A DNA stretch of 64,000 bases from Paraburkholderia agricolaris (GTDB lineage Bacteria > Pseudomonadota > Gammaproteobacteria > Burkholderiales > Burkholderiaceae), in NCBI RefSeq assembly GCF_009455635.1, contig NZ_QPER01000002.1, positions 1,550,001 through 1,614,000 of the forward strand, written 5' to 3'. Both the position numbers and the translations under genes were made by a program. Under the pieces are notes generated by a model that worked only from the letters and a program-made list of their open reading frames with translations, was not told the origin of the DNA and did not search any database. Below are positions 2,228 through 63,168 of this stretch, one piece after another; the first letter of the stretch is position 1, and the number at the start of each line of letters is the position of its first letter.

Positions 2228-3235
2228 ATGCAGATCGATCTTCCTGTTGTGTGGGCCGCGATCATCGGACTCGGTGTTTTCATCTACGTGATGCTGGACG
2301 GCTTCGATCTCGGCATTGGCCTGCTGTTTCCGTTTTTCGAGGAGAAGGGCGACCGGCAGGTGATGCTCAATACCATCGCACCGGTCTGGGACGGGAACGA
2401 GACATTTCTTGTGCTGGGCGGCGCCGGGCTATACGGGGCGTTTCCGGTGGTTTATTCGACGCTGCTGCCGGCGAACTATCTGCCGCTGATCCTGATGGTG
2501 GTGGGTCTGATCTTTCGCGGAGCGGCCTTCGAATTGCGGGCTAAGGCCGTCAGGACCCAGCACGCGTGGGACCTCGCTTTCATTGGCGGCTCCGCACTCG
2601 CGGGGCTCTGCCAGGGCATCGTGCTGGGCTCACTGCTGCAGGGCATCAAGATCGTCGACGGCCGCTTCGCCGGCGACCCGTTCGACTGGCTTTCGCCGTT
2701 CAGCCTGTTCTGCGGAATCGGCGTACTCACTACGTACGCGACGCTCGGCTGCGGCTGGCTCATCCTGAAGACGGACGGCGAATTGCAGCGCAAGATGCGC
2801 GAACTGATGCGGCCGCTCGTGAGCGTCCTGCTTGGCGCGATGATGATTGTGAGTCTCTGGACCGTGATCGGATTGCCGGCGGTTGAGCATCGCTGGTTCG
2901 GCAGCGGCAATCTCGGCTGGTTCCTGCCGGTGCCGATTCTTGTGATTGCCTGTGTGTGGGGCGTGTTCCGTTCGGTGCGTCTGAAGCTCGAAGCCACCCC
3001 GTTTCTGCTCACCCTCGGGCTGTGCTTTCTCGGCTATAGCGGCTTGCTCATCAGCATCTGGCCCAACATCGTGCCGCCTTCGCTGACCATCTGGGAGGCC
3101 TCGTCGAGCCATTCGAGCCAGCTGTTCGCCCTGGTCGGCACGGTGATCGTGTTGCCGGTCATCCTCGTCTACAACGTCATGCAGTATCGCGTATTCCGGG
3201 GCAAGGTGCGCGAAGGGGACGCCGGTTACCACTGA
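2228..3235 (+). CDS. cydB: Cytochrome bd ubiquinol oxidase subunit II
   Basis: Second integral membrane subunit of the bd oxidase, 335 residues, mostly hydrophobic with about eight to nine helices. It starts MQIDLPVVWAAIIGLGVFIY and carries the family signature DGFDLGIGLLFPF followed by the APVWDGNETFLVLGGAGLYG segment. The longer open frame that begins at 2150 overlaps cydA, so ATG 2228 is preferred. No CydX or DUF2474-type small subunit is visible in the 37 bases between this stop and the next gene. Its position between a molybdoenzyme and Moco biosynthesis genes suggests it serves as terminal oxidase for that module, which is inference. Confidence 0.95.
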   Translation: MQIDLPVVWAAIIGLGVFIYVMLDGFDLGIGLLFPFFEEKGDRQVMLNTIAPVWDGNETFLVLGGAGLYGAFPVVYSTLLPANYLPLILMVVGLIFRGAAFELRAKAVRTQHAWDLAFIGGSALAGLCQGIVLGSLLQGIKIVDGRFAGDPFDWLSPFSLFCGIGVLTTYATLGCGWLILKTDGELQRKMRELMRPLVSVLLGAMMIVSLWTVIGLPAVEHRWFGSGNLGWFLPVPILVIACVWGVFRSVRLKLEATPFLLTLGLCFLGYSGLLISIWPNIVPPSLTIWEASSSHSSQLFALVGTVIVLPVILVYNVMQYRVFRGKVREGDAGYH

Positions 3236-3272
3236 GGGTGACGGCGCAGTCAGACTATTACAAGAGCACGTT

Positions 3273-4184
3273 ATGATTGTGAGGCCAGGGCAAAACTGGT
3301 TCCGGCTGCTGTTTATCTGGAACGGTTCCGTATTGCAGTCGATTATTCCTCAACTGGTTTTCATGGGGGCTGTCAGCAGTCTTGCCGTACTGACGCACGG
3401 GCGCATTTTCGGCGAGAAGATCCCGCTCAATACGGCGCCGTTCACGTTATTTGGCCTGGCGCTGGCGATCTTTCTTGCGTTCCGCAATAACGCAAGCTAT
3501 GAGCGCTTCAACGAGGCGCGCCATCTCTGGGGCAGCACGCTGATCTCAGCGCGCTCGCTGACTTCGCAGATGCTGTGCTACGTCCCGCGCGGCGATCACA
3601 ACGTGCAAATGGCGCATACCCTGATTGCGACCGCTTACGCGTTGAAGCATCAATTGCGTGGGACCGATCCGACGCCGGACCTTGTTCGCCTGCTCGGACG
3701 CACGCGAACCGAGGCACTGCAGCACACCTGCTACAAACCGACTGCGCTGCTCAACGACGTTCGTCGCGATTTCGCCGATCTGCAGGTCCGGGGATTGATC
3801 TCGGACACGAAGCTCTGGATGCTGGACGCGCAGATCGACGAGTTGGGAAAGACGGTGGGTGGTTGTGAACGGATTGCGTCCACGCCGATTCCGTTCGCCT
3901 ACAGCGTGCTGCTGCACCGTACCGTCTACGCCTATTGCGTGTTGCTGCCGTTCGGTCTTGTGGATTCCACGGAGTTCTTCACACCGCTGCTCTGCGTTTT
4001 CATTTCTTATACGCTGATTGCACTGGAAGCGATCGCCAGCGAAGTCGCCGAGCCCTTTTCGGTTGCGCCGAATGCGCTGGCGCTTGATGCGATAACCCGC
4101 AATATCGAACGCTCGGTTCTCGAACTATGCTGCTGCGAACTACCCGCCGAGATCCAGCCGCTGCGCTCGTACCAACTGACTTAG
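3273..4184 (+). CDS. Bestrophin-family (YneE/UPF0187) membrane protein
   Basis: The 303-residue protein opens MIVRPGQNWFRLLFIWNGSVL and carries the bacterial bestrophin marks: a pair of hydrophobic helices, the FLAFRNNASYERFNEARHLWG segment that lines the pore region, and the RIASTPIPFAYSVLLHRTVY motif in the C-terminal half. Bacterial bestrophins form pentameric ion channels in the inner membrane, with anion or cation preference depending on the member; selectivity cannot be read here. It starts 37 bases after cydB on the same strand, so co-transcription is likely. The functional link to a respiratory or molybdoenzyme operon is unknown. Confidence 0.85.
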   Translation: MIVRPGQNWFRLLFIWNGSVLQSIIPQLVFMGAVSSLAVLTHGRIFGEKIPLNTAPFTLFGLALAIFLAFRNNASYERFNEARHLWGSTLISARSLTSQMLCYVPRGDHNVQMAHTLIATAYALKHQLRGTDPTPDLVRLLGRTRTEALQHTCYKPTALLNDVRRDFADLQVRGLISDTKLWMLDAQIDELGKTVGGCERIASTPIPFAYSVLLHRTVYAYCVLLPFGLVDSTEFFTPLLCVFISYTLIALEAIASEVAEPFSVAPNALALDAITRNIERSVLELCCCELPAEIQPLRSYQLT

Positions 4185-4431
4185 GGCGCTTTTCCCGATG
4201 CCTCCGGTCGGGTCGCCCGGCAGTCTGCAAGCCTGCGTTGCCGTGACACCTGACACCGCGGCCAAACTGTACTCCTGGAATTCGACACTGACTGTGCGTC
4301 CCCTGCACAGGGCCGACGCACTATCCTGCCAGAAGGTCAGGCGTGGGCCGGCGGCGCTGCCAGTCAGAACAGTCGGCTGCCGCTGCTCCTTCGCTTCGTT
4401 GCCGCCTTCTGTGGCTCCCTTTGGATAGATC

Positions 4432-5538
4432 GTGAACCTCATCGACCCGCCCGTACTCGCTGACATCGCTTCCCGCCGTGGCGTAGCCACAGGCGGCGTC
4501 GCCACGGCCACGCTCGACACGCTCAATCGTCCGCTGCGGGATTTACGCCTGTCCGTAATCGATCAATGCAATTTCCGCTGCACCTACTGCATGCCGCGGG
4601 AGACCTTCGGCGCCGACTACCGGTTCCTGCCGTCTGCGGAACGACTGTCGTTCGAACAGATCCTTAAGCTCGCAAAAGCGTTCGCGCTGCTCGGGGTGGA
4701 GAAGATACGCATCACCGGTGGCGAGCCGCTCCTGCGGCGTGGGCTCGAATCCCTGATCGAACAGCTCGCGAAACTGACCACCGGAAGCGGCAAACCGATG
4801 GAACTCGCGCTGACGACCAACGGTTCGCTGCTCGCCGCGAAGGCCCGCTCGCTGCGCGACGCCGGCCTCGGCCGCGTGACCGTGAGCCTCGACGCCGTGG
4901 ACGATGCGATATTTCGCCGGATGAGCGACGTCGACATGCCCGTGTCGCGAATCCTGGACGGAATCGAGGCAGCGCGCGCAGTGGGCCTCGCACCGCTCAA
5001 GGTCAACACAGTGATCGAGCGGGGCGTCAACGACAGTCAGATCCTGCCGCTCGTGCGAATGTTCAAGGGCACCGGCGTGGCCGTGCGTTTCATCGAATAT
5101 ATGGATGTTGGTGGCGCGGACGGATGGTCGAACACGAAAGTGATCACGGCGCGCGAGACGCGCAGTATCGTTGAATCGGCGTTCCCGCTGACGCCGGTCG
5201 TCGTTCATGAGCACACGGGCACTGCCGTCAACTATCGCCATGCCGACGGTTCAGGCGAAGTCGGTTTCATCGCGAGCGTATCGCAACCGTTCTGCGGATC
5301 GTGTTCGCGTGCCCGCGTATCGGCCGACGGCCAGCTTTACACCTGCCTGTTCGCCACCCGTGGCACGGACCTTAGGCCCTGGCTCAACGAGGCCGCCTCC
5401 GTCGAGCAACTGGCCGCGGCTGTCCGCAGCCAATGGGTCCAGCGTGACGACCGCTACTCCGAGCTTCGCTCGACGCCACGCAAACCTGCATCGGGAAAAG
5501 CCTATCCCACCGTTCGCATGTCGCTGGTCGGCGGTTGA
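4432..5538 (+). CDS. moaA: GTP 3',8-cyclase, first step of molybdopterin synthesis
   Basis: Radical SAM enzyme that, with MoaC, converts GTP to cyclic pyranopterin monophosphate. The 368-residue product has the radical-SAM cluster Cys46-Cys50-Cys53 in SVIDQCNFRCTYCMP, the SAM-binding ITGGEPLLR motif near 94-102, and the second C-terminal cluster Cys288-Cys291-Cys305 (PFCGSCSRARVS ... LYTC). The tail MSLVGG preserves the C-terminal GG needed for activity. The start is GTG at 4432, giving an N-terminal extension of roughly 25 residues over E. coli MoaA. About 247 bases without a gene precede it; I could not recognise a Moco riboswitch fold there. moaE and moaD follow, moaC does not. Confidence 0.93.
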   Translation: MNLIDPPVLADIASRRGVATGGVATATLDTLNRPLRDLRLSVIDQCNFRCTYCMPRETFGADYRFLPSAERLSFEQILKLAKAFALLGVEKIRITGGEPLLRRGLESLIEQLAKLTTGSGKPMELALTTNGSLLAAKARSLRDAGLGRVTVSLDAVDDAIFRRMSDVDMPVSRILDGIEAARAVGLAPLKVNTVIERGVNDSQILPLVRMFKGTGVAVRFIEYMDVGGADGWSNTKVITARETRSIVESAFPLTPVVVHEHTGTAVNYRHADGSGEVGFIASVSQPFCGSCSRARVSADGQLYTCLFATRGTDLRPWLNEAASVEQLAAAVRSQWVQRDDRYSELRSTPRKPASGKAYPTVRMSLVGG

Positions 5539-5583
5539 CGCCGGGCCAGCCATTGCGAAGCAGACACAGACTGGAGAGCCGCC

Positions 5584-6135
5584 ATGACAACACCGTCGTC
5601 CAGTGATCGCCCACAGTCCGATGCCAGCCACGTCGGCGAGTTTGCCAGCGATCCAGTGCTTCTGGCGGACGCTGTCGCGACGGAGTTCGACGTGCGTGTC
5701 CAGCGCCAGCCGATCGATATCCAGTCGGAAATCATGCCGGTCATGCGCAATCCCAACGTGGGCGCCGTCGTGAATTTTCTCGGCGTGGTGCGCCAATGCG
5801 GCGATGTCGGCGACGTGGTCGCGCTCGAACTCGAGCACTACCCGGGAATGACCGAGCAGTCGTTCAGCAGCATCGTCGAGGAGGCGATCGCGCGATGGCG
5901 TCTCGAAGCCGTGAAGATCGTGCATCGGGTCGGCCGTGTCGCGCTCGGCGACGCGGTGGTACTCGTCGTAGTCGCCGCGCCGCATCGCGGGGCCGCCTTC
6001 GACGCGTGTGAATTCCTGATGGACTTCCTGAAGGCCCACGCGCCGCTGTGGAAGAAGGAAATTCACCGCGACGGTTCGGTCAGATGGGTCGAGGCCAGGA
6101 GCCGCGATGAACAGTCGATGTTGCGGTGGGGGTGA
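5584..6135 (+). CDS. moaE: Molybdopterin synthase catalytic (large) subunit
   Basis: Transfers sulphur from thiocarboxylated MoaD to precursor Z to make molybdopterin. The conserved core begins about residue 30 (DIQSEIMPVMRNPNVGAVVN) and includes the FLGVVR motif, LELEHYPGMTE, the HRVGRVALGDAVV segment and the catalytic stretch HAPLWKKEIHRDG. At 183 residues it is longer than the usual 150 or so, owing to a polar N-terminal extension. An alternative internal start would remove the extension, so the start is moderately sure. It sits 45 bases after moaA and 42 before moaD, with the same orientation. Confidence 0.93.
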   Translation: MTTPSSSDRPQSDASHVGEFASDPVLLADAVATEFDVRVQRQPIDIQSEIMPVMRNPNVGAVVNFLGVVRQCGDVGDVVALELEHYPGMTEQSFSSIVEEAIARWRLEAVKIVHRVGRVALGDAVVLVVVAAPHRGAAFDACEFLMDFLKAHAPLWKKEIHRDGSVRWVEARSRDEQSMLRWG

Positions 6136-6177
6136 CGTGCCGTTCGCCCATACCGGGCCAGCCACAGGAACAGACGA

Positions 6178-6435
6178 ATGAAACTCACCATCCGGTATTT
6201 CGCCAGCGTGCGTGAACAACTCGGCATTTCCGAGGAGATCGTGCACATCGACGCGCCCGAGCTTGCCGTCGATGGCCTGCGGGTCAGGCTCGCGTCGCGA
6301 GACGAGCGCATGGCCGAAGCGCTGCGCGCGGGCCGGCCGCTGCGTACCGCCGTCAACCACGAGATGGTTGCCGATACGTTTGTCGTGCGCGAGGACAGCG
6401 AGATCGCTTTCTTTCCGCCCGTCACGGGCGGTTAG
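6178..6435 (+). CDS. moaD: Molybdopterin synthase sulphur carrier (small) subunit
   Basis: Ubiquitin-like carrier of 85 residues that becomes thiocarboxylated at its C-terminus and feeds sulphur to MoaE. It has the expected start MKLTIRYFASVREQLG and the ending AFFPPVTGG, where the terminal Gly-Gly is the activation site. An AGGA Shine-Dalgarno lies about 10 bases before the ATG. It closes the rightward set that begins with the molybdoenzyme. The convergent MocR gene ends 18 bases downstream, so a terminator must sit in or near this junction; only a short GGCGG/CCGCC inverted repeat overlaps the stop. Confidence 0.93.
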   Translation: MKLTIRYFASVREQLGISEEIVHIDAPELAVDGLRVRLASRDERMAEALRAGRPLRTAVNHEMVADTFVVREDSEIAFFPPVTGG

Positions 6436-6453
6436 CAGCCCGCCGACAGGACG

Positions 6454-7881
6454 CTAACCGGCGCACATCGCAACCAGCTTGCCGACGGTAATCACCGCCT
6501 GTTCGATCTCGCTCGACCAGGCGCTGCTGTAATTGAGGCGGATGAAGTTCCGATAGGTCGTCTCCGAGACCGAGAACATGTAGCCCGGGCCGATGGTGAT
6601 GCCTTCATCGAGCGCGAGCTTATAGAGCCGCATGGCGTCGACCTTGGGCGGCAGTTCGATCCACAGCACATATCCGCCGGCCGGGTTGGACATGCGCGTA
6701 CCTTCAGGGAAGAAACGCGCGACTGTGGCCTTCATCAGATTGGCCTGCTGCGCATACGCTCTCCGGACTCGTCGCAGGTGATGCTCGTAGCCGTCGCGTT
6801 CGAGGAATTCCGCAATCGCCATTTGCGGAATCGACGGAGAAGTCAGGGTGTTCAGAAACTTGAGTTTCTCGACCTGATCGCGATACCGGCCCGGCAGCGC
6901 CCAACCAATCCGGTACGCTGCCGTCAGGGTCTTCGAGAACGAGCCGCAGTGCAGCACCAGTCCCTTCGTGTCGAAGGATTTCAACGTACTCGGGTGCGTG
7001 CTGTCATAGTGCAATTCGTTGTAGACACCGTTCTCGATGACCGGAATGTCCCACTTCGTCAGGCGTTGCACGAGTTCGCGCTTGCGTTCGTCGGGCATCA
7101 GAAAGCCCAGCGGATTCTGGAAGTTCGGCATGACCATGCAGGCCGCGATGGTCTGCGATTCCACAATCGCGGCCAGCGCCTCGATATCGATGCCGTGTTC
7201 CGGATGCGTCGACACTTCAATCGCTTTCATGCCCATCCGTTCGATCGCGTGGAGCATCGCGTAGAAGGTCGGTGACTCGACGGCAATCACGTCGCCGGGT
7301 TTCGCGACCGCCTGGAGGCACAGGTTGATTGCTTCAGTCGCGCCGACCGTGATGACGATCTCGTTCGGATCGACCGCCATGCCGTTCTCGAGGTAACGAC
7401 GCGCGATCTGGCGCATGAGTGCCGCGTTGCCGGGCGGCAGCGCATCCGTCACGCCCCAGCGGGTCTTGCCCCGTCCCGCGTCGTAAGCGTAGCGGTTGAG
7501 CTTCTCGAATGGAAACAGACTGGCATCGGGATAGGGCGAACCGAGCGGCACGGCGTCGTCGACACCGATCGAGCGCAAGGTGGACAGCACGAGGCGGCTC
7601 ACGTCGACCGGCGACGAAATCGGGATCGGTTTCGATGGCCGGAGCTCGAGCGCTTTCCGCTCGCCGCCGTCGCCCCGGAAGTTGACGAAATAGCCCGACT
7701 GGGGCCTCGCCGTTAGCAAGCCACGGCTTTCGAGCAGCAGATAGGCGCGGATGACGGTCGTCACGCTCAGCCGATGCTGCTGGCTGGTCTGCCGTACCGA
7801 CGGCAGACGTTCGCCATGCCCGTACACGCCTTGTCGGATCAGTTTCTCGATATCGTCTGCAAGCTTCTCGTAGAGATTCAT
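6454..7881 (-). CDS. MocR-type GntR/aminotransferase transcriptional regulator
   Basis: The 475-residue protein joins an N-terminal winged helix of the GntR family (about residues 1-70: LADDIEKLIRQGVYGHGERL, then SVRQTSQQHRLSVTTVIRAY) to a fold-type I aminotransferase domain. The PLP-lysine motif is CGSFSKTLTAAYRIGWALPG and the substrate-carboxylate region ends in FIRLNYSS. MocR proteins bind PLP and amino-acid-derived ligands and usually control adjacent PLP, amino acid or GABA genes; no such gene is next to this one, so the target is unknown. A Shine-Dalgarno AAGGGA lies upstream of the ATG at 7881. It diverges from the LysR gene, with 273 bases between them. Confidence 0.93.
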   Translation of the reverse strand: MNLYEKLADDIEKLIRQGVYGHGERLPSVRQTSQQHRLSVTTVIRAYLLLESRGLLTARPQSGYFVNFRGDGGERKALELRPSKPIPISSPVDVSRLVLSTLRSIGVDDAVPLGSPYPDASLFPFEKLNRYAYDAGRGKTRWGVTDALPPGNAALMRQIARRYLENGMAVDPNEIVITVGATEAINLCLQAVAKPGDVIAVESPTFYAMLHAIERMGMKAIEVSTHPEHGIDIEALAAIVESQTIAACMVMPNFQNPLGFLMPDERKRELVQRLTKWDIPVIENGVYNELHYDSTHPSTLKSFDTKGLVLHCGSFSKTLTAAYRIGWALPGRYRDQVEKLKFLNTLTSPSIPQMAIAEFLERDGYEHHLRRVRRAYAQQANLMKATVARFFPEGTRMSNPAGGYVLWIELPPKVDAMRLYKLALDEGITIGPGYMFSVSETTYRNFIRLNYSSAWSSEIEQAVITVGKLVAMCAG

Positions 7882-9450: not shown

Positions 9451-10848
<1,398 letters not shown>

Positions 10849-10887: not shown

Positions 10888-11691
10888 TTATTCGGCCTGG
10901 GTCAGCGACACCGATGCTTCACTCGTCAGCGCGAGGAAGGTCAGCGTCTCGCGCAGATAGAGGCGCACTACCGTGTCGGTATGGCTCGAATAACCGATCG
11001 ACAGCTCTTCGCCAAGGTGCAATTCGAAATCGCCGCCGCGCGTGGAGATTACGCTGCCGCCTGCCAGCGCGGGCGCCCAGATGACGTCGCCGCTCACAAT
11101 CCGCTTGATGTGTTCGATGACCGGATAACCCTGATCGCGCGCCTCGGCGAGTGCCGTGTAGGCGTCGGCGCCAAGCAGCACGGAATAGGGACCGTCGACA
11201 CCGGCAAGCCGCAGTTCTTCGAGCGCGTTGCTAATCGTGTTCGGATAAGCGGCAACGTCGGCCGGCAGCGCGAGCGCCGGGTTCGACGAGCCTTCGCGCA
11301 GGCCGCCGATACCCGCGGCCTTATAGCCGTCGAAAATCGCGCGATCTTCGGCGTAGGCGAGTTCTTTTGCGGCTTCCTTCGCGGGCTGCCAGTCAGCATC
11401 TTTTGCGCCACGCAAGACGCTGTCGATCGCTTCGCGCTGCAGTTCGAACGGCACGGTCAACTCGACAAGGCTCTTGACCTCGGACAGCTTCGCCACAACG
11501 CCCTGCTGCGGCGCGGTGATCGCGATCTGGTGCCCGGTGCCGACGCCGGATAGTTCGGTTCCGCCAGGACCCTTGACGTCAACCACGCGACGGCCGGCAA
11601 CACTGCGCTTGAAGGTGCGAGCCACTTCGTCTTCGATCTGCGACCAGGCGGCATGAGAGATGGGGGCAAGCTCGCGATGCAGATTATTCAT
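10888..11691 (-). CDS. Encapsulin shell protein (family 1, linocin-M18-like)
   Basis: The 267-residue product from ATG 11691 is an HK97-fold encapsulin, the protomer of a protein nanocompartment. Recognisable stretches are MNNLHRELAPISHAAWSQIE, KRSVAGRRVVDVKGPGG, the E-loop region LVELTVPFELQREAID, the A-domain segment PYSVLLGADAYTAL, and the end LHLGEELSIGYSSHTDTVVR. The open frame extends nine codons upstream, but the shorter start has an AAGGGA ribosome site and fits the family N-terminus. The DyP gene directly upstream ends 8 bases inside this gene (stop at 11684), so translation is coupled and shell and cargo are made together. Confidence 0.95.
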   Translation of the reverse strand: MNNLHRELAPISHAAWSQIEDEVARTFKRSVAGRRVVDVKGPGGTELSGVGTGHQIAITAPQQGVVAKLSEVKSLVELTVPFELQREAIDSVLRGAKDADWQPAKEAAKELAYAEDRAIFDGYKAAGIGGLREGSSNPALALPADVAAYPNTISNALEELRLAGVDGPYSVLLGADAYTALAEARDQGYPVIEHIKRIVSGDVIWAPALAGGSVISTRGGDFELHLGEELSIGYSSHTDTVVRLYLRETLTFLALTSEASVSLTQAE

Positions 11692-12742
11692 GTTGAGAGA
11701 TTCCCTTGAGAGAGCCAATATTCAGCGAGCCGTCATGACGCGGCCCGGTGGATGAAGAGGAGTCGGGCGCTTGCGCGACAACGGCGGCAGTTTGCGGATC
11801 GCGATCCGCGAGCGCCTCGAGCAAGCTGGCCGACGGCACGAAGAAGAGGTTGCCCGTGACCGCGCGGCTGTAGTCGAGCAGCCGGTCGTAGTTGCCCGGC
11901 GGCCGCCCGACGAACATGTTTTCCATCATCTGCTCGATCGGTTCGGGCGAACGCGCATAGCCGATAAAGTAGGTGCCGAACTCGCCCATGCCGGGGCGCC
12001 CGAATGGCATGTTGTCGCGCAGGATCTTCACTTCCTCGCCGTTCTCGGTGATCGTGGTGAGCGAGCTGTGCGAACAGGTGGGTTTGACCGCTTCGTCGAG
12101 TTCGATATCGGACAGTTTCGTGCGGCCGATAATGCGCTCCTGGGTCTCGACCGAAAGCGCGTTCCAGCCGGTCATGTCGTGCAGGTACTTCTGCACGATG
12201 ACGTAGCTGCCGGCCTCGAATTCCCGATCCTCGTCGCCGATAAGCGTGAAGTCCACGGCCTCGCGACCTTCCGGATTCTCGGTACCGTCGACGAAACCCA
12301 CCATGCTGCGCAGATCGAAGTTGCGAAACCCGTGCACTTCTTCGATCACCGTGACCGCATCGCCAAGCCGTCCCGCCAGTTGCGTGGCGAGTTCGAAGCA
12401 GAGGTCCATCTGATCGGCGCGGATGTGCAGCAGGATATCCCCGGGCGTGCTCACGGCGCGGCGTTCGCCCGAGCCGAATTCGCGAAACGGATGCAGCGCC
12501 GCCGGGCGCGGCGCGCCGAACAGCGTGTCCCACACGTCGGAGCCGAAGCCGACCACGCACGACAGGTTGCCGGACGGGACGCGCTTGCCCACCGAGCGCA
12601 CCAGGGCGGCAACGTCGCCGCACCACGCACGCACCTGTTCAGCGGGGTCCTGACCATCCTTGAGGGTCGCGACGATGAAGATCGCGCTACGGGTAATGTT
12701 ATTACATACGGCTTGCGGTTCTGGGATGTCGTCTTTAGGCAT
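11684..12742 (-). CDS. DyP-type haem peroxidase with encapsulin cargo-loading peptide
   Basis: Haem peroxidase of 352 residues that uses hydrogen peroxide to oxidise dyes or other substrates. The GxxDG motif is GFVDGTENP (catalytic Asp152), a proximal His is probable at 225 (PTCSHSSL), and the distal Arg is in KILRDNMPFG (Arg242). After a flexible Ser-rich stretch the C-terminus carries DGSLNIGSLKGI (337-348), which matches the known encapsulin targeting signal of DyP cargos. The shell gene overlaps the 3' end by 8 bases. The pair therefore encodes a peroxidase packed inside a nanocompartment, probably for oxidative stress; the natural substrate is not known. Confidence 0.96.
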   Translation of the reverse strand: MPKDDIPEPQAVCNNITRSAIFIVATLKDGQDPAEQVRAWCGDVAALVRSVGKRVPSGNLSCVVGFGSDVWDTLFGAPRPAALHPFREFGSGERRAVSTPGDILLHIRADQMDLCFELATQLAGRLGDAVTVIEEVHGFRNFDLRSMVGFVDGTENPEGREAVDFTLIGDEDREFEAGSYVIVQKYLHDMTGWNALSVETQERIIGRTKLSDIELDEAVKPTCSHSSLTTITENGEEVKILRDNMPFGRPGMGEFGTYFIGYARSPEPIEQMMENMFVGRPPGNYDRLLDYSRAVTGNLFFVPSASLLEALADRDPQTAAVVAQAPDSSSSTGPRHDGSLNIGSLKGISQHE

Positions 12743-59668: not shown

Positions 59669-60247
59669 TCATAACCGATTGTGGTGTGCGTGCATGCCGG
59701 TGTGAGATTGGCGGATGTCTTGCGGTGCGAGGCCATAAGCACGCCGAAAAGCCCGCGTGAAATCCGACGCGCTTTTGAAACCGTGAGCGTAGCCGATGTC
59801 CTGCACCGGAACGCCGGGGAAAGCGACGAGTTCGTCGGCAGCGGCACGCAACCGCGTGTGCCGGATATAGGCGGCAAGTCCTCTGTCGTGCTGAAAGAGG
59901 CGATAGAGGGTGGGGCGCGAGATACCCAATGACTCCACGACACGATCGGGCGAAAGATCGTCGTCGCGCAGGTTCGCGTGCACGTAGCGGCGCGCCAGGT
60001 CGAACGCCATGGCGCGCGCGAGCGCCGGTTTGCTGCCCCTCAGCCCCGCCTGCTCGCCGAACGCGTCCGCGATCAGCAGCACGATCTCGCGAAGAATCCG
60101 GTGGGCATCCCAAGGCGCCATGAAGCGGAGGAGTTGCTGCTGGACGGGCAGCGCGGACACGTCGAAATGCTGGTGCGCGATTTCAAGCCGCTGGGCTGGG
60201 TCCAGGGTGACGGGCAGATCCTGAAAGTGCGTCTTGACAGCTGGCAT
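59669..60247 (-). pseudogene. AraC-family regulator, probably N-terminally truncated
   Basis: The 192-residue frame has an intact AraC/XylS C-terminal domain (SPDRVVESLGISRPTLYRLF; VQDIGYAHGFKSASDFTRAF, RRAYGLAPQDIRQ) but only about 90 residues before it, where this family normally has 200 or more. The upstream 386 bases hold no continuation in any frame that I could recognise. It may be a decayed remnant, or a genuine short form with its own ATG at 60247. It diverges from the large glycosyltransferase fusion gene. Confidence 0.65.
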
Positions 60248-60633
60248 GGTGAGGATTCAGTGAAAAGGCAGAAGGTCTTGCTGCAATGCAGGGACCACCA
60301 GTACGGACGTCGCAGCCCGCAGCGCGGAATGGTCACAGGGATAGTGTTGCTCGCCATGCGGGAAAGATGAATGCTTCGTAAGGTGGCTGCATTATTGCCT
60401 CATTGGATTAATTCCAAAAGCGGGAACAACGTCCATTGCGCTCCTTAATATCCCTGACGACGCCAGCTAAAGCTCGTTCGTGCGGGTGAATCCGGCCCCT
60501 GGAAAAGTTGTATAAACCGAGCGACGGCAACTACGATAGACAGTGCCTCAACGCAATCCTTACCAATCGGCGCTCGATGCGCGGCTCGCCTGCGTCGAGA
60601 AATCAACGGAAGCCTGAGCAGGGGACTACAGCC
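60248..60633. other. Divergent intergenic region before the fusion glycosyltransferase
   Basis: 386 bases without a supported gene. An open frame begins at 60508 in phase with the fusion gene but its first 42 codons look non-coding; AGGGG lies about 10 bases before ATG 60634. The stretch 60360-60420 is A/T-rich and could hold the promoter. Confidence 0.5.
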
Positions 60634-63168
60634 ATGAGCATCATCAGGCAAGTGGTGGTCGTGATTGCCCTTTCGCTTTCGGCGCTGTTCCTGGGAATTC
60701 AGTTCTGGACCACCAGCGTCATCGCCGTGCGATCTGAGCAGATCCTGCGCGAGTACGACGCTCGGCCTCCCCTTACGTCAATGGCGGAGGAAAAGGCCAG
60801 ACAGGAAGCGATCGCCGCGAAGATCCAGAATGTGAAGCAAGGTCTGTTCTGGACCGGTATCGCCGGCAACCTGAGCGCCGCAGCGGCGGTCATCGTTGCT
60901 CTGTCCGGCGCCTGGATCGGATTTCATCAATACCTCGGCGTCCGGCAGAAGGAGAGGGTTGACCGTGCCTCCGCTGAGCTGAAGTCGATCTGGGAGATGC
61001 TGGCCGATAAGTCCGCGATGGTGCGTGGCGCCGGCATGGCGGCGCTACAGAATTTCCTTGGCCGAGAACTATCGATCTATCACAGCTCCATTGCCTCTGC
61101 CTTGTCGGTAGGCTGTCGATCGATTCTGGCGTATTCGGATACCCCGAAAGATTCCGAATTTCTTCTGCGAACCGTTACGCCGGTGATTGAACGCGCCTTC
61201 CGCTCGATTGATCACGAGACGCTGGGGTCAGTCTCATGGCAGGGCGTGGTTCTCTATTACCCCCGTCTCAATGACCTCGATCTTCATGGCTTCGATTTTC
61301 GCGATGCGATCATCATGGGCGGCGACTTTACCGGCTCCAATCTTCAGGGTTGCCGCTTCAACGCTGCGCGACTGACCCAGTGTCAATTCGATGGCGCCGA
61401 TCTGCGGAAGGCGGTACTTGAACATGCCGACCTTGCGTCGGCGAGCTTCAAGGGGGCGAACTTATCGGACACGGATCTGCGCAACGTCAAGATACTGCAC
61501 ACGGATTTTTCCGCCTGCGATCTGCGCGACGCCAGATTCAGCCGGACCAAAATCGATTGGACGCTGACCAAAGGATGGCGCACCAGCCACCTCGACCCTG
61601 GCCTGCGAAAAACACTGATCGCGAAGCATGGACCGGAGGCTACGGGTCCGCGCGCACTGATGATGTGTTGGGAGTTTCCGCCTTTTGTCTCGGGCGGGGG
61701 GTGGACCGCGGCGTACCATCTGGTGCGACGGCTGCGCCGGAAGGGCAGTGACCTTACGTTGCTGGCGCCGTGGCCTCACTCCTCGTTATCGCCTTACCCG
61801 TTTGGCCACGAAGTCGAAGTTGCCGGCGTCGGTATTGATCATGCGGGAATCGATATGCGGCCTTTCCAGGGCTTTTCGGCCTATGGGTCGTACGGTGCCT
61901 ATTCGAGTGCTCCCGCGTCGGAGATCGCTTCCGGGTTGGTGCAGGCCGAGGGTGAGGCAGGCAGCATCGTCGACGAGGTGAGCGCGTTCGCGCGTCGATG
62001 CGCAGACTTCGCCGAAGAGTCCGGCCACAACTGGAAAATCATCCATGCTCATGACTGGGTAACGTTCCCGGCTGCGGCACGGTTGGCACGGGTGTCGAGT
62101 TCTCCCTGGATTGCTCATTTCCATTCGACCGAATGGGATCGAAGAGGCGATAAGGCCAGTGAACTCATTCATCAGATTGAAGAAGACGCTTGCAGAGCCG
62201 CCGACAAGATTCTGGTTCCGAGCACCGTTCTCAGGGACACGCTTGTCCGCGTGTTGAAAGCCGAGCGCACGAAGATCCTGGTCGTCCCGAACTGTTTCGA
62301 GTTTGAGCCGGAAGAGTTGCAAAGACGCGGCAGCTTCAAAGCCAGGAGGGTGATATTTGCAGGACGGATCACCGCTCAGAAGGGACCCGACTACTTCATC
62401 GAAGCGGCAACCAGGATCAGGAAGAGGTTGCCGGAGGCGACCTTCGCGATGTATGGCGAAGGCGACATGGTGCAGCAGATCGCGACCTCGATCAGGCAGT
62501 ATTTCCACCCGACGAAATTTATACCTCCGGTTGAAAACAAACAGGGGACGCCCGTGGAACTGATCGTGAGTCTGACTAGCGTGATCGTTGCGACGCGCAA
62601 TCCGGTGACCGGTCGGCTCAGCTACAAGAACACTTCGTCTCCGGCGTCGCTCGATCGCGAGTTGGAGGCGAGGATTGCGAAGGGCGGTTTCACTCTGACG
62701 CTGAAGTTCACCCCGGACGGCTACCATCTTGTGACATTCGGGGAGGGAGCGCGCCAGGAGAACTTCCTGGTCTACGGCCCTGGGTTATGGAGGGAGGGGG
62801 ACCCAATCGTGGAAATGAATGGGTTCGTCGACTGGTCGGCCCGCAATAGAATGTTTAGAAACGCCAGCGCCGTTATCGTGCCCTCGCGTAGCGAGCCATT
62901 CGGAATGATCATTCTCGAGGCAATGGAGAATGGCGTGCCCGTGTTCTACTCCAGAAACGCCGGCGTGAGCGACGTGCTTCAGACCGACCTGACAATCGAC
63001 CCCGAGGATGCGGAAGCGGTTGCCGGGAAGGTCTGCGAACTTCTGTCCAACGAGCGTCGATGGCTCGCGGTGGTCGAAGAGCAGAGGGCGGCGCTGCTGA
63101 AGTTCTCGAAAACACCTTGTGAAGACGAGGTGGTTCGGACCTGGAAGTCCCTGATCCAACGGACATGA
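60634..63168 (+). CDS. Membrane-anchored pentapeptide-repeat / GT4 glycosyltransferase fusion
   Basis: An 844-residue protein with an unusual layout. Residues 5-27 and about 72-94 are membrane helices (VVVVIALSLSALFLGIQFW; GNLSAAAAVIVALSGAWIGF). Residues 210-310 form pentapeptide repeats of the A(D/N)LXX type (DLDLHGFDFRDAIIMGGDFT; GADLRKAVLEHADLASASFK; GANLSDTDLRNVKILHTDFS). From 339 a GT-B glycosyltransferase begins with MMCWEFPPFVSGGGWTAAYH, includes AGRITAQKGPDYFIEAATRI and the EX7E motif SEPFGMIILEAMENG near the end, as in glycogen-synthase-like GT4 enzymes. About 97 residues (632-728) are inserted in the C-terminal GT half. Donor and acceptor are unknown. Confidence 0.85.
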   Translation: MSIIRQVVVVIALSLSALFLGIQFWTTSVIAVRSEQILREYDARPPLTSMAEEKARQEAIAAKIQNVKQGLFWTGIAGNLSAAAAVIVALSGAWIGFHQYLGVRQKERVDRASAELKSIWEMLADKSAMVRGAGMAALQNFLGRELSIYHSSIASALSVGCRSILAYSDTPKDSEFLLRTVTPVIERAFRSIDHETLGSVSWQGVVLYYPRLNDLDLHGFDFRDAIIMGGDFTGSNLQGCRFNAARLTQCQFDGADLRKAVLEHADLASASFKGANLSDTDLRNVKILHTDFSACDLRDARFSRTKIDWTLTKGWRTSHLDPGLRKTLIAKHGPEATGPRALMMCWEFPPFVSGGGWTAAYHLVRRLRRKGSDLTLLAPWPHSSLSPYPFGHEVEVAGVGIDHAGIDMRPFQGFSAYGSYGAYSSAPASEIASGLVQAEGEAGSIVDEVSAFARRCADFAEESGHNWKIIHAHDWVTFPAAARLARVSSSPWIAHFHSTEWDRRGDKASELIHQIEEDACRAADKILVPSTVLRDTLVRVLKAERTKILVVPNCFEFEPEELQRRGSFKARRVIFAGRITAQKGPDYFIEAATRIRKRLPEATFAMYGEGDMVQQIATSIRQYFHPTKFIPPVENKQGTPVELIVSLTSVIVATRNPVTGRLSYKNTSSPASLDRELEARIAKGGFTLTLKFTPDGYHLVTFGEGARQENFLVYGPGLWREGDPIVEMNGFVDWSARNRMFRNASAVIVPSRSEPFGMIILEAMENGVPVFYSRNAGVSDVLQTDLTIDPEDAEAVAGKVCELLSNERRWLAVVEEQRAALLKFSKTPCEDEVVRTWKSLIQRT

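Follow-up and report, generated by a model that had tools for sequence, protein, structure and literature searches.

What kind of enzyme results when a membrane anchor, a pentapeptide repeat and a glycosyltransferase are joined in a single gene, and how might such an enzyme work? The question is raised by a gene for an 844-residue protein near the end of a 64,000-nucleotide stretch of Paraburkholderia agricolaris DNA (NCBI RefSeq assembly GCF_009455635.1, contig NZ_QPER01000002.1, positions 1,550,001 to 1,614,000), hereafter called the window. We found that the protein belongs to a rare and patchily distributed family of single-gene, membrane-tethered enzymes of glycosyltransferase (GT) family 4 (GT4), present across distant bacteria. 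The GT4 class and both folds involved are known, while the arrangement, and a Ser/Tyr-rich loop on the acceptor domain, are apparently new to us.

A single gene built of known domains

The gene is one uninterrupted open reading frame (ORF; 60634-63168), running from ATG to TGA with one stop only. Third-position guanine plus cytosine (G+C) content lies between 0.61 and 0.77 across nine blocks of the gene, i.e. one coding pattern throughout, so that no sign of a frameshift join was seen. The Pfam models for the pentapeptide repeat (7.8e-17), Glycos_transf_1 (3.2e-23) and Glyco_trans_4_4 (1.4e-19) all exceeded their curated cut-offs. An AlphaFold model, based on a 29-row alignment (mean predicted local distance difference test score, pLDDT, 83; predicted template modeling score 0.72), displays long N-terminal helices, a helical neck, a beta-helix and a GT-B enzyme, with stretches of three or more residues below a pLDDT of 50 at 73-85, 409-442 and 637-642. 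An initial annotation, made from the DNA alone, had described two N-terminal helices, a pentapeptide domain and a complete GT-B enzyme with an EX7E motif in this frame, and the domain searches and structure prediction that it had proposed bore this description out. A promoter search at the gene gave no matches, and terminator-like sites numbered one against 2.7 expected. No second full copy of the protein was found in its own genome.

By protein search, 268 matches were obtained among the 7994 candidates sharing most words with the query, and the best 120 of these, the query included, make up the family alignment referred to below. A census of domain order, likewise proposed earlier, found the layout of transmembrane (TM) segments, pentapeptide repeat and GT4 enzyme in these best 120 of 268, many of which are 36-39% identical over nearly the full length; P0004 lacks the C-terminal half. 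In the N-terminal (acceptor) domain of the enzyme, G354, G355, H497 and R503 are each present in 120 of 120 proteins and E500 in 110. Both glutamates of the EX7E motif (E754 and E762) are identical in 119, the remaining row being a gap in P0004, which ends earlier. Membership of GT4 is indicated by Pfam GT4/group 1 models above the curated cut-off, together with the EX7E motif and the GG motif of the N-domain, and the GT-B fold is supported by alignment of the model to BshA and MshA, these structure matches spanning residues 337-844. No NCBIfam equivalog cut-off was reached among the best 25 of 56 matches, the top one being glgA_Coryne with 57 of 302.4 bits. The repeat belongs to the pentapeptide family, as indicated by its PF00805 match and by regular pentads in clean register from 205 to 304.

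Table 1. Features of the gene and of the adjoining AraC-type gene, in window positions.
Feature	Position	Strand	Basis
Whole gene: two TM helices, pentapeptide repeat, GT4	60634..63168	+	frame, Pfam
Ribosome-binding-like site AGGGGA	60620..60625	+	sequence; eight bases before ATG
TM helix 1 (residues 7-25)	60652..60708	+	hydropathy; model helix 2-42
Inter-TM segment (residues 29-70), EK-RQE-I-N motif	60718..60843	+	family alignment
TM helix 2 (residues 71-98, about)	60844..60927	+	hydropathy; low model confidence
Helical neck (residues 99-200), then invariant W202 (SWQG)	60928..61233	+	model, alignment
Pentapeptide beta-helix, 20 pentads, five coils (residues 205-304)	61246..61545	+	Pfam, model, alignment, register
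Linker with invariant W315-R316	61546..61641	+	family alignment
GT-B N-terminal (acceptor) domain (residues 337-556)	61642..62301	+	Pfam, alignment, structure matches
Disordered Ser/Tyr-rich loop (residues 401-444), short version FSAYGSYGAYSS	61834..61965	+	model, alignment
GT-B C-terminal (donor) domain (residues 565-843)	62326..63162	+	Pfam, structure matches
C-domain insert, long class only (within residues 612-725)	62467..62808	+	alignment, model
EX7E motif E754-E762	62893..62919	+	alignment
Shortened AraC-type regulator, adjoining, not part of the system	59669..60247	-	comparison with G065

A Ser/Tyr-rich loop and a C-domain insert

The initial annotation had missed two parts of the enzyme, namely the Ser/Tyr loop (residues 401-444) and, in the C-domain, an insert about 105 residues long. 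In the model, the loop sits between strand 395-399 and helix 445-463 of the N-domain, with a short helix (430-436) drawn inside its low-confidence part. It is again disordered (424-482, pLDDT below 50) in a second model, made for the short-class Rhodovulum protein P0111. Defined as the stretch aligned with residues 400-448, the loop measures 34-117 residues (median 70) in 119 proteins, P0004 being left out. It consists of S-[PAS]-Y-[GSA] units, the commonest words being SPYG (119), SPYA (52) and SPYS (39), and Trp stands three places ahead of Tyr in 136 of 845 cases. Relative to the rest of the same 119 proteins, the loop is enriched in Tyr (5.4-fold), Ser (2.7-fold), Pro (2.6-fold) and Gly (2.3-fold) and depleted of Lys, Val, Asp and Glu, and 102 of the 119 loops are richer in Tyr than any window of equal length elsewhere in the protein.

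Some loops are plainly repetitive, e.g. P0144 with near-perfect PAWSPYGP tandem repeats and P0149 with SPYSY repeats. At the DNA level, tandem repeats of 12-24 bases were found at the loop in three of six loci (L015, L017 and L018) and not in L011, L012 and L014, at a low score limit of 30. These repeats fit gain and loss of units by repeat slippage. Unit content also varies between close relatives, with three Tyr in the window protein and seven in P0004.

In a wider segment around the loop, Tyr amounts to 5.8% in the family versus 1.9% in the rest of the protein (114 of 120 usable), to 7.7% versus 1.8% in near relatives mostly lacking pentapeptides (P0121-P0146, 22 of 26 usable, two pentapeptide fusions included), and to 5.7% versus 3.8% in generic GT4 controls (P0163-P0238, 74 of 76 usable). 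Raw content of the wider segment thus does not separate the family from the controls, which differ from it instead in the loop as such and in how far Tyr in the segment exceeds Tyr in the remaining protein. The loop is mostly retained in those near relatives whose segment is readable.

The insert follows C-domain strand 603-607 and is carried by 37 of 119 proteins, mostly with a length of about 100-135 residues, leaving 82 without it; the window protein belongs to this long class. Four long-class inserts gave only a thin alignment, with 21-25% identity to the first row and five invariant columns. Loops are shorter in proteins with the insert (median 44 residues) than in those without (78), with a p of 9e-17 that is uncorrected for kinship. 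On a tree of 133 rows, the insert state required six changes and the fusion state eight, 47 of the 130 inner branches being weakly supported.

Distribution of the family

Among the sampled genomes, only the own genome had a match, i.e. one of 144 in the genus, one of 398 in the family, one of 300 in the order and one of 398 in the phylum, in overlapping sets with few candidates scored per genome. Given these limits, and those of the protein search and of the locus scan, the rarity of the family is approximate. Of 351 relatives seen in a scan of the species genome collection, 79 loci were retained, of which 25 were translated and 13 had their ORFs listed, and at least 11 of the 79 (L009-L018 and L020) carry the pentapeptide-GT fusion. 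Their titles include Methylomonas (L009, a relative in Methylomonas methanica), Planctomycetota, Blastocatellia, Desulforapulum, Chromatiaceae, Rhodospirillales and Alphaproteobacteria, among others. L018 and L020 hold near-identical proteins in one region, titled as a Rhodospirillales and a Burkholderiales bog bin; as the region is common to both titles, one bin or the other, if not both, is probably misassigned.

A search with just the first 330 residues gave 161 matches. Among the best 120 of these, four (P0239, P0004, P0240 and P0241) cover 97-100% of the query and resemble cut-short family members, and the remaining ones cover at most 74% and are mostly pentapeptide proteins. In P0239 and P0240, the N-terminal parts are intact and the ends consist of unrelated sequence as after a frameshift, by decay or assembly error.

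Probable membrane anchor and pentapeptide arm

Two or more hydrophobic segments occur within the first 330 residues of 109 of the 120 proteins, one in eight and none in three, and the segment between the TM helices is conserved as well (K54 in 111, E58 in 112 and N66 in 101 of 120). None of the 26 near relatives P0121-P0146 has such a segment within its first 200 residues. Both loop-bearing GT-only loci that were read, L019 and L027, have a gene for a small membrane protein directly upstream of the GT gene (1208-1645 and 1002-1427, respectively), with 68% identity between the two. Membrane attachment may therefore be retained by two routes, i.e. TM helices of the protein itself or an upstream membrane protein, the latter seen at just these two loci. 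The earlier suggestion of a membrane-tethered sugar transferase gains support from both the hydrophobic segments and these upstream genes. The L019 membrane protein had a borderline match to the Pfam model 8xMP (30.5 bits, cut-off 30) and its L027 relative matched neither Pfam nor NCBIfam models under the thresholds applied, so that we do not rely on this label.

In the beta-helix, the register FDFRD (220-224) points D221, R223 and D224 outward, as judged from general knowledge of pentapeptide folds. These residues are present in 120, 114 and 117 of the 120 proteins, respectively, and the flanking W202, W315 and R316 are identical in all. The conservation of outward residues suggests a docking surface, for a putative partner, rather than a mere spacer. 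The beta-helix had initially been regarded as a scaffold or acceptor-binding platform; the former role is plausible in view of these residues, while nothing was found in favor of acceptor binding by the beta-helix, a role for which we prefer the Ser/Tyr loop. A role as DNA mimic, as in the acidic MfpA, was set aside, the charge being near neutral (14 acidic and 13 basic residues in 205-307).

Comparison with known systems

Compared with the retaining GT4 enzymes BshA, MshA, GlgM, HepE and TarM (PF00534/PF13439/PF13579), to which it is 14-22% identical in alignments, the window protein has in addition the TM hairpin, the pentapeptide helix, the Ser/Tyr loop and the long-class C-domain insert. 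With the pentapeptide proteins MfpA, Qnr and HetL (PF00805) it shares clear pentads and a modeled beta-helix, but its helix is fused to an enzyme and, unlike the acidic MfpA, close to neutral. TM-linked pentapeptide repeats also occur in Bacteroidetes Min-Wnt operons (PMC12419801). There, the membrane-linked run is similarly present but goes together with Min-Wnt and glycosyl hydrolase functions encoded by genes of their own, and no glycosyltransferase fusion was seen in the available part of that source; the likeness is one of domain description.

The initial annotation knew of no such combination of domains. No description of the layout, loop or fusion was found in open-licence PubMed Central (PMC) text, nor does the TM-pentapeptide-GT fusion appear in the accessible text of PMC8195603, PMC12419801 and PMC7159879, but with 268 matching proteins the layout is not a one-off. 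What emerges is a family with hundreds of members for which no description was found, in which a pentapeptide beta-helix with nearly invariant outward residues is tied to a known type of enzyme and a repeat-built loop probably lies near the active site. The loop poses a testable question, i.e. whether it serves self-modification, polymer grip or enzyme clustering.

Proposed working and alternative explanations

We favor, with some reservation, the overall reading of a self-contained, membrane-tethered, retaining GT4 enzyme with an anchor, a beta-helix arm and an acceptor-side loop. Sequence and model show two hydrophobic helices, a helical neck, a right-handed beta-helix of five coils and a GT-B enzyme in which no signature residue is missing. 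The protein is very probably an active, retaining enzyme tethered to the membrane. The beta-helix probably acts as a spacer or in docking, the chances that the loop acts at the acceptor side are about even, and glycosylation of the loop itself is doubtful. Both ends of the protein would lie in the cytoplasm and the anchor would keep the enzyme at the inner membrane face. The rigid arm would dock by its conserved outward residues and fix the distance between cleft and bilayer. The loop might then handle the acceptor, either by gripping a glycan or polymer through multiple aromatic contacts or by being an acceptor itself. In GT-B enzymes, loops after the C-terminal strand ends of the Rossmann sheets border the cleft, and the Ser/Tyr loop is placed there because it follows the C-terminal end of strand 395-399 of the acceptor domain. 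As loop and insert both follow C-terminal strand ends of the two Rossmann sheets, a shared lid is possible, and in the long class, in which the insert accompanies a shorter loop, the two may divide such a role.

Several observations weigh against this reading. The trade-off between loop and insert is partly kinship, since the tree, itself weakly supported, requires about six changes of insert state. Tyr does not exceed the best window elsewhere in 17 of the 119 loops, and the Tyr cluster of the window protein itself is within chance, being reached by 454 of 5000 shuffles; the clustering is significant through the family only, not in this protein alone. The membrane part is poorly modeled (pLDDT block means of 47-77 over residues 1-110, and below 50 over residues 45-109 of the P0111 model), the membrane topology of the window protein is one that we infer, and the GT frame of L027 is cut short at 240 residues. 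Lastly, the inspected neighbors indicate no common pathway.

A possible alternative, to which we give limited weight, is that the loop acts as a low-complexity sticker, gathering enzyme molecules into clusters at the membrane, its chemistry being unimportant. The composition of S, G, P and Y with few charges resembles the [GS]Y[GS] segments found in FUS-like proteins, and the repeats expand and shrink, as seen from the DNA repeats described above. Many long-class loops, however, have few Tyr, the window protein only three.

It is unlikely that the protein is a defense or conflict effector in which the repeat domain senses and the GT4 domain then modifies a molecule of invader or host. The GT4-conflict model PF20706 did match, with 50.4 bits at a cut-off of 26, but the generic PF00534 reached 82.6 bits, and generic GT4 models outscored it in the five relatives scanned as well. 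The very patchy, single-gene distribution would suit an effector, as would two loci adjoining defense genes according to PADLOC (run on ten neighbors from six loci): in L013 all three genes of the candidate system PDC-M55A/B/C (3031-7028) lie directly upstream of the family member, and in L015 a type VI retron reverse transcriptase with a helix-turn-helix protein and a Fic protein (2891-4666) lie near it. Household neighbors at other loci (trp biosynthesis, FtsH, UbiA, signaling) speak against such a role. PADLOC found nothing in the 844-residue protein and, among 35 window neighbors, a single family in a single protein (mad2, E 5e-16; limit 1e-10). GT4 effectors of conflict systems, with which the window protein shares a GT4 domain and a patchy spread, are proposed in PMC8195603, and PMC7159879 names glycosyltransferase and pentapeptide-repeat domains, separately, at effector positions. 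In contrast to those GT4 effectors, no NTPase switch or conflict-system domain was found in the window protein by Pfam or PADLOC, no complete system was found around it, and generic GT4 models fit better. We class the catalytic domain as GT4 and the repeat as pentapeptide, and do not class the protein as a conflict effector.

Quite unlikely is also a GT-B enzyme with an acceptor of its own, in which the repeat-built loop, overhanging the catalytic cleft, would be self-O-glycosylated and prime a membrane-bound glycan. How many chains there are would then depend on the copy number of the units, with the pentapeptide arm keeping the reaction at the membrane. Glycogenin is a self-glucosylating starter of family GT8 with a GT-A fold. 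Like it, the window protein has possible Tyr/Ser acceptors in its own chain, as candidate residues, but it differs by its GT-B fold and several loop tyrosines. If this were true, the family would represent a GT-B analog of glycogenin in bacteria.

We regard as improbable a chance fusion of an ordinary GT4 to a membrane pentapeptide protein, with loop and insert as neutral filler. The free variation in loop length would agree with it, as would the seemingly frameshifted close relatives P0239 and P0240. Against it stand the identical layout in very different bacteria, the presence of W202, D221, W315 and R316 in 120 of 120 proteins, and a loop composition that is retained in 119 proteins as well as in the GT-only relatives. 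That a frameshift or assembly error joined two genes, which had been named as a possible refutation, has practically no chance of being right, given the lack of an inner stop, the even coding pattern and the same fusion in other listed homologs from other sources.

Genomic neighborhood and possible acquisition

The identified neighbors of the gene are AraC, PadR, a siderophore-interacting protein and a major facilitator superfamily (MFS) protein on one side, and a porin and another MFS protein on the other. The initial remark that no other polysaccharide gene lies nearby holds for these six, genes further away not having been searched for such functions. The adjacent AraC gene had been called damaged, and it does encode 192 residues compared with 347 in the relative G065, in a frame that is still open; its DNA aligns to G065 in two pieces of 84% and 89% identity. 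Similarity to G065 ends at window position 60262, where G065 proceeds with a DUF817 gene, and the flank downstream of the GT gene matches G065 only elsewhere. This synteny break at about 60262, seen against G065 alone, together with the rarity of the gene suggests that it was acquired, in line with the earlier idea of an acquired, self-contained unit, which the single match among 144 genus genomes and the unlike neighbors also support. Base composition lends no support to acquisition, as the G+C content at the gene (0.56-0.62) differs little from the values around it. A plasmid search at 1e-30 gave no match to the protein, a phage search gave one match, to the GT part only (29.5% identity over 34%), and a search of viral contigs one weak match.

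The neighbors of the relatives, as identified by domains in ten proteins from seven loci, are diverse, e.g. GGDEF/EAL signaling, a histidine kinase, a helicase, trp genes with Crp, FtsH and UbiA.

Elsewhere in the window, a gene for a family 1 encapsulin shell lies beside a gene for a DyP-type peroxidase (10891-12742, minus strand), the two being a known cargo pair. In addition, atpD for the ATP synthase beta subunit (822 bits) was found at 9454-10836 on the plus strand with neighbors that, by eye, are unlike other atp genes, and could be a second copy of the gene.
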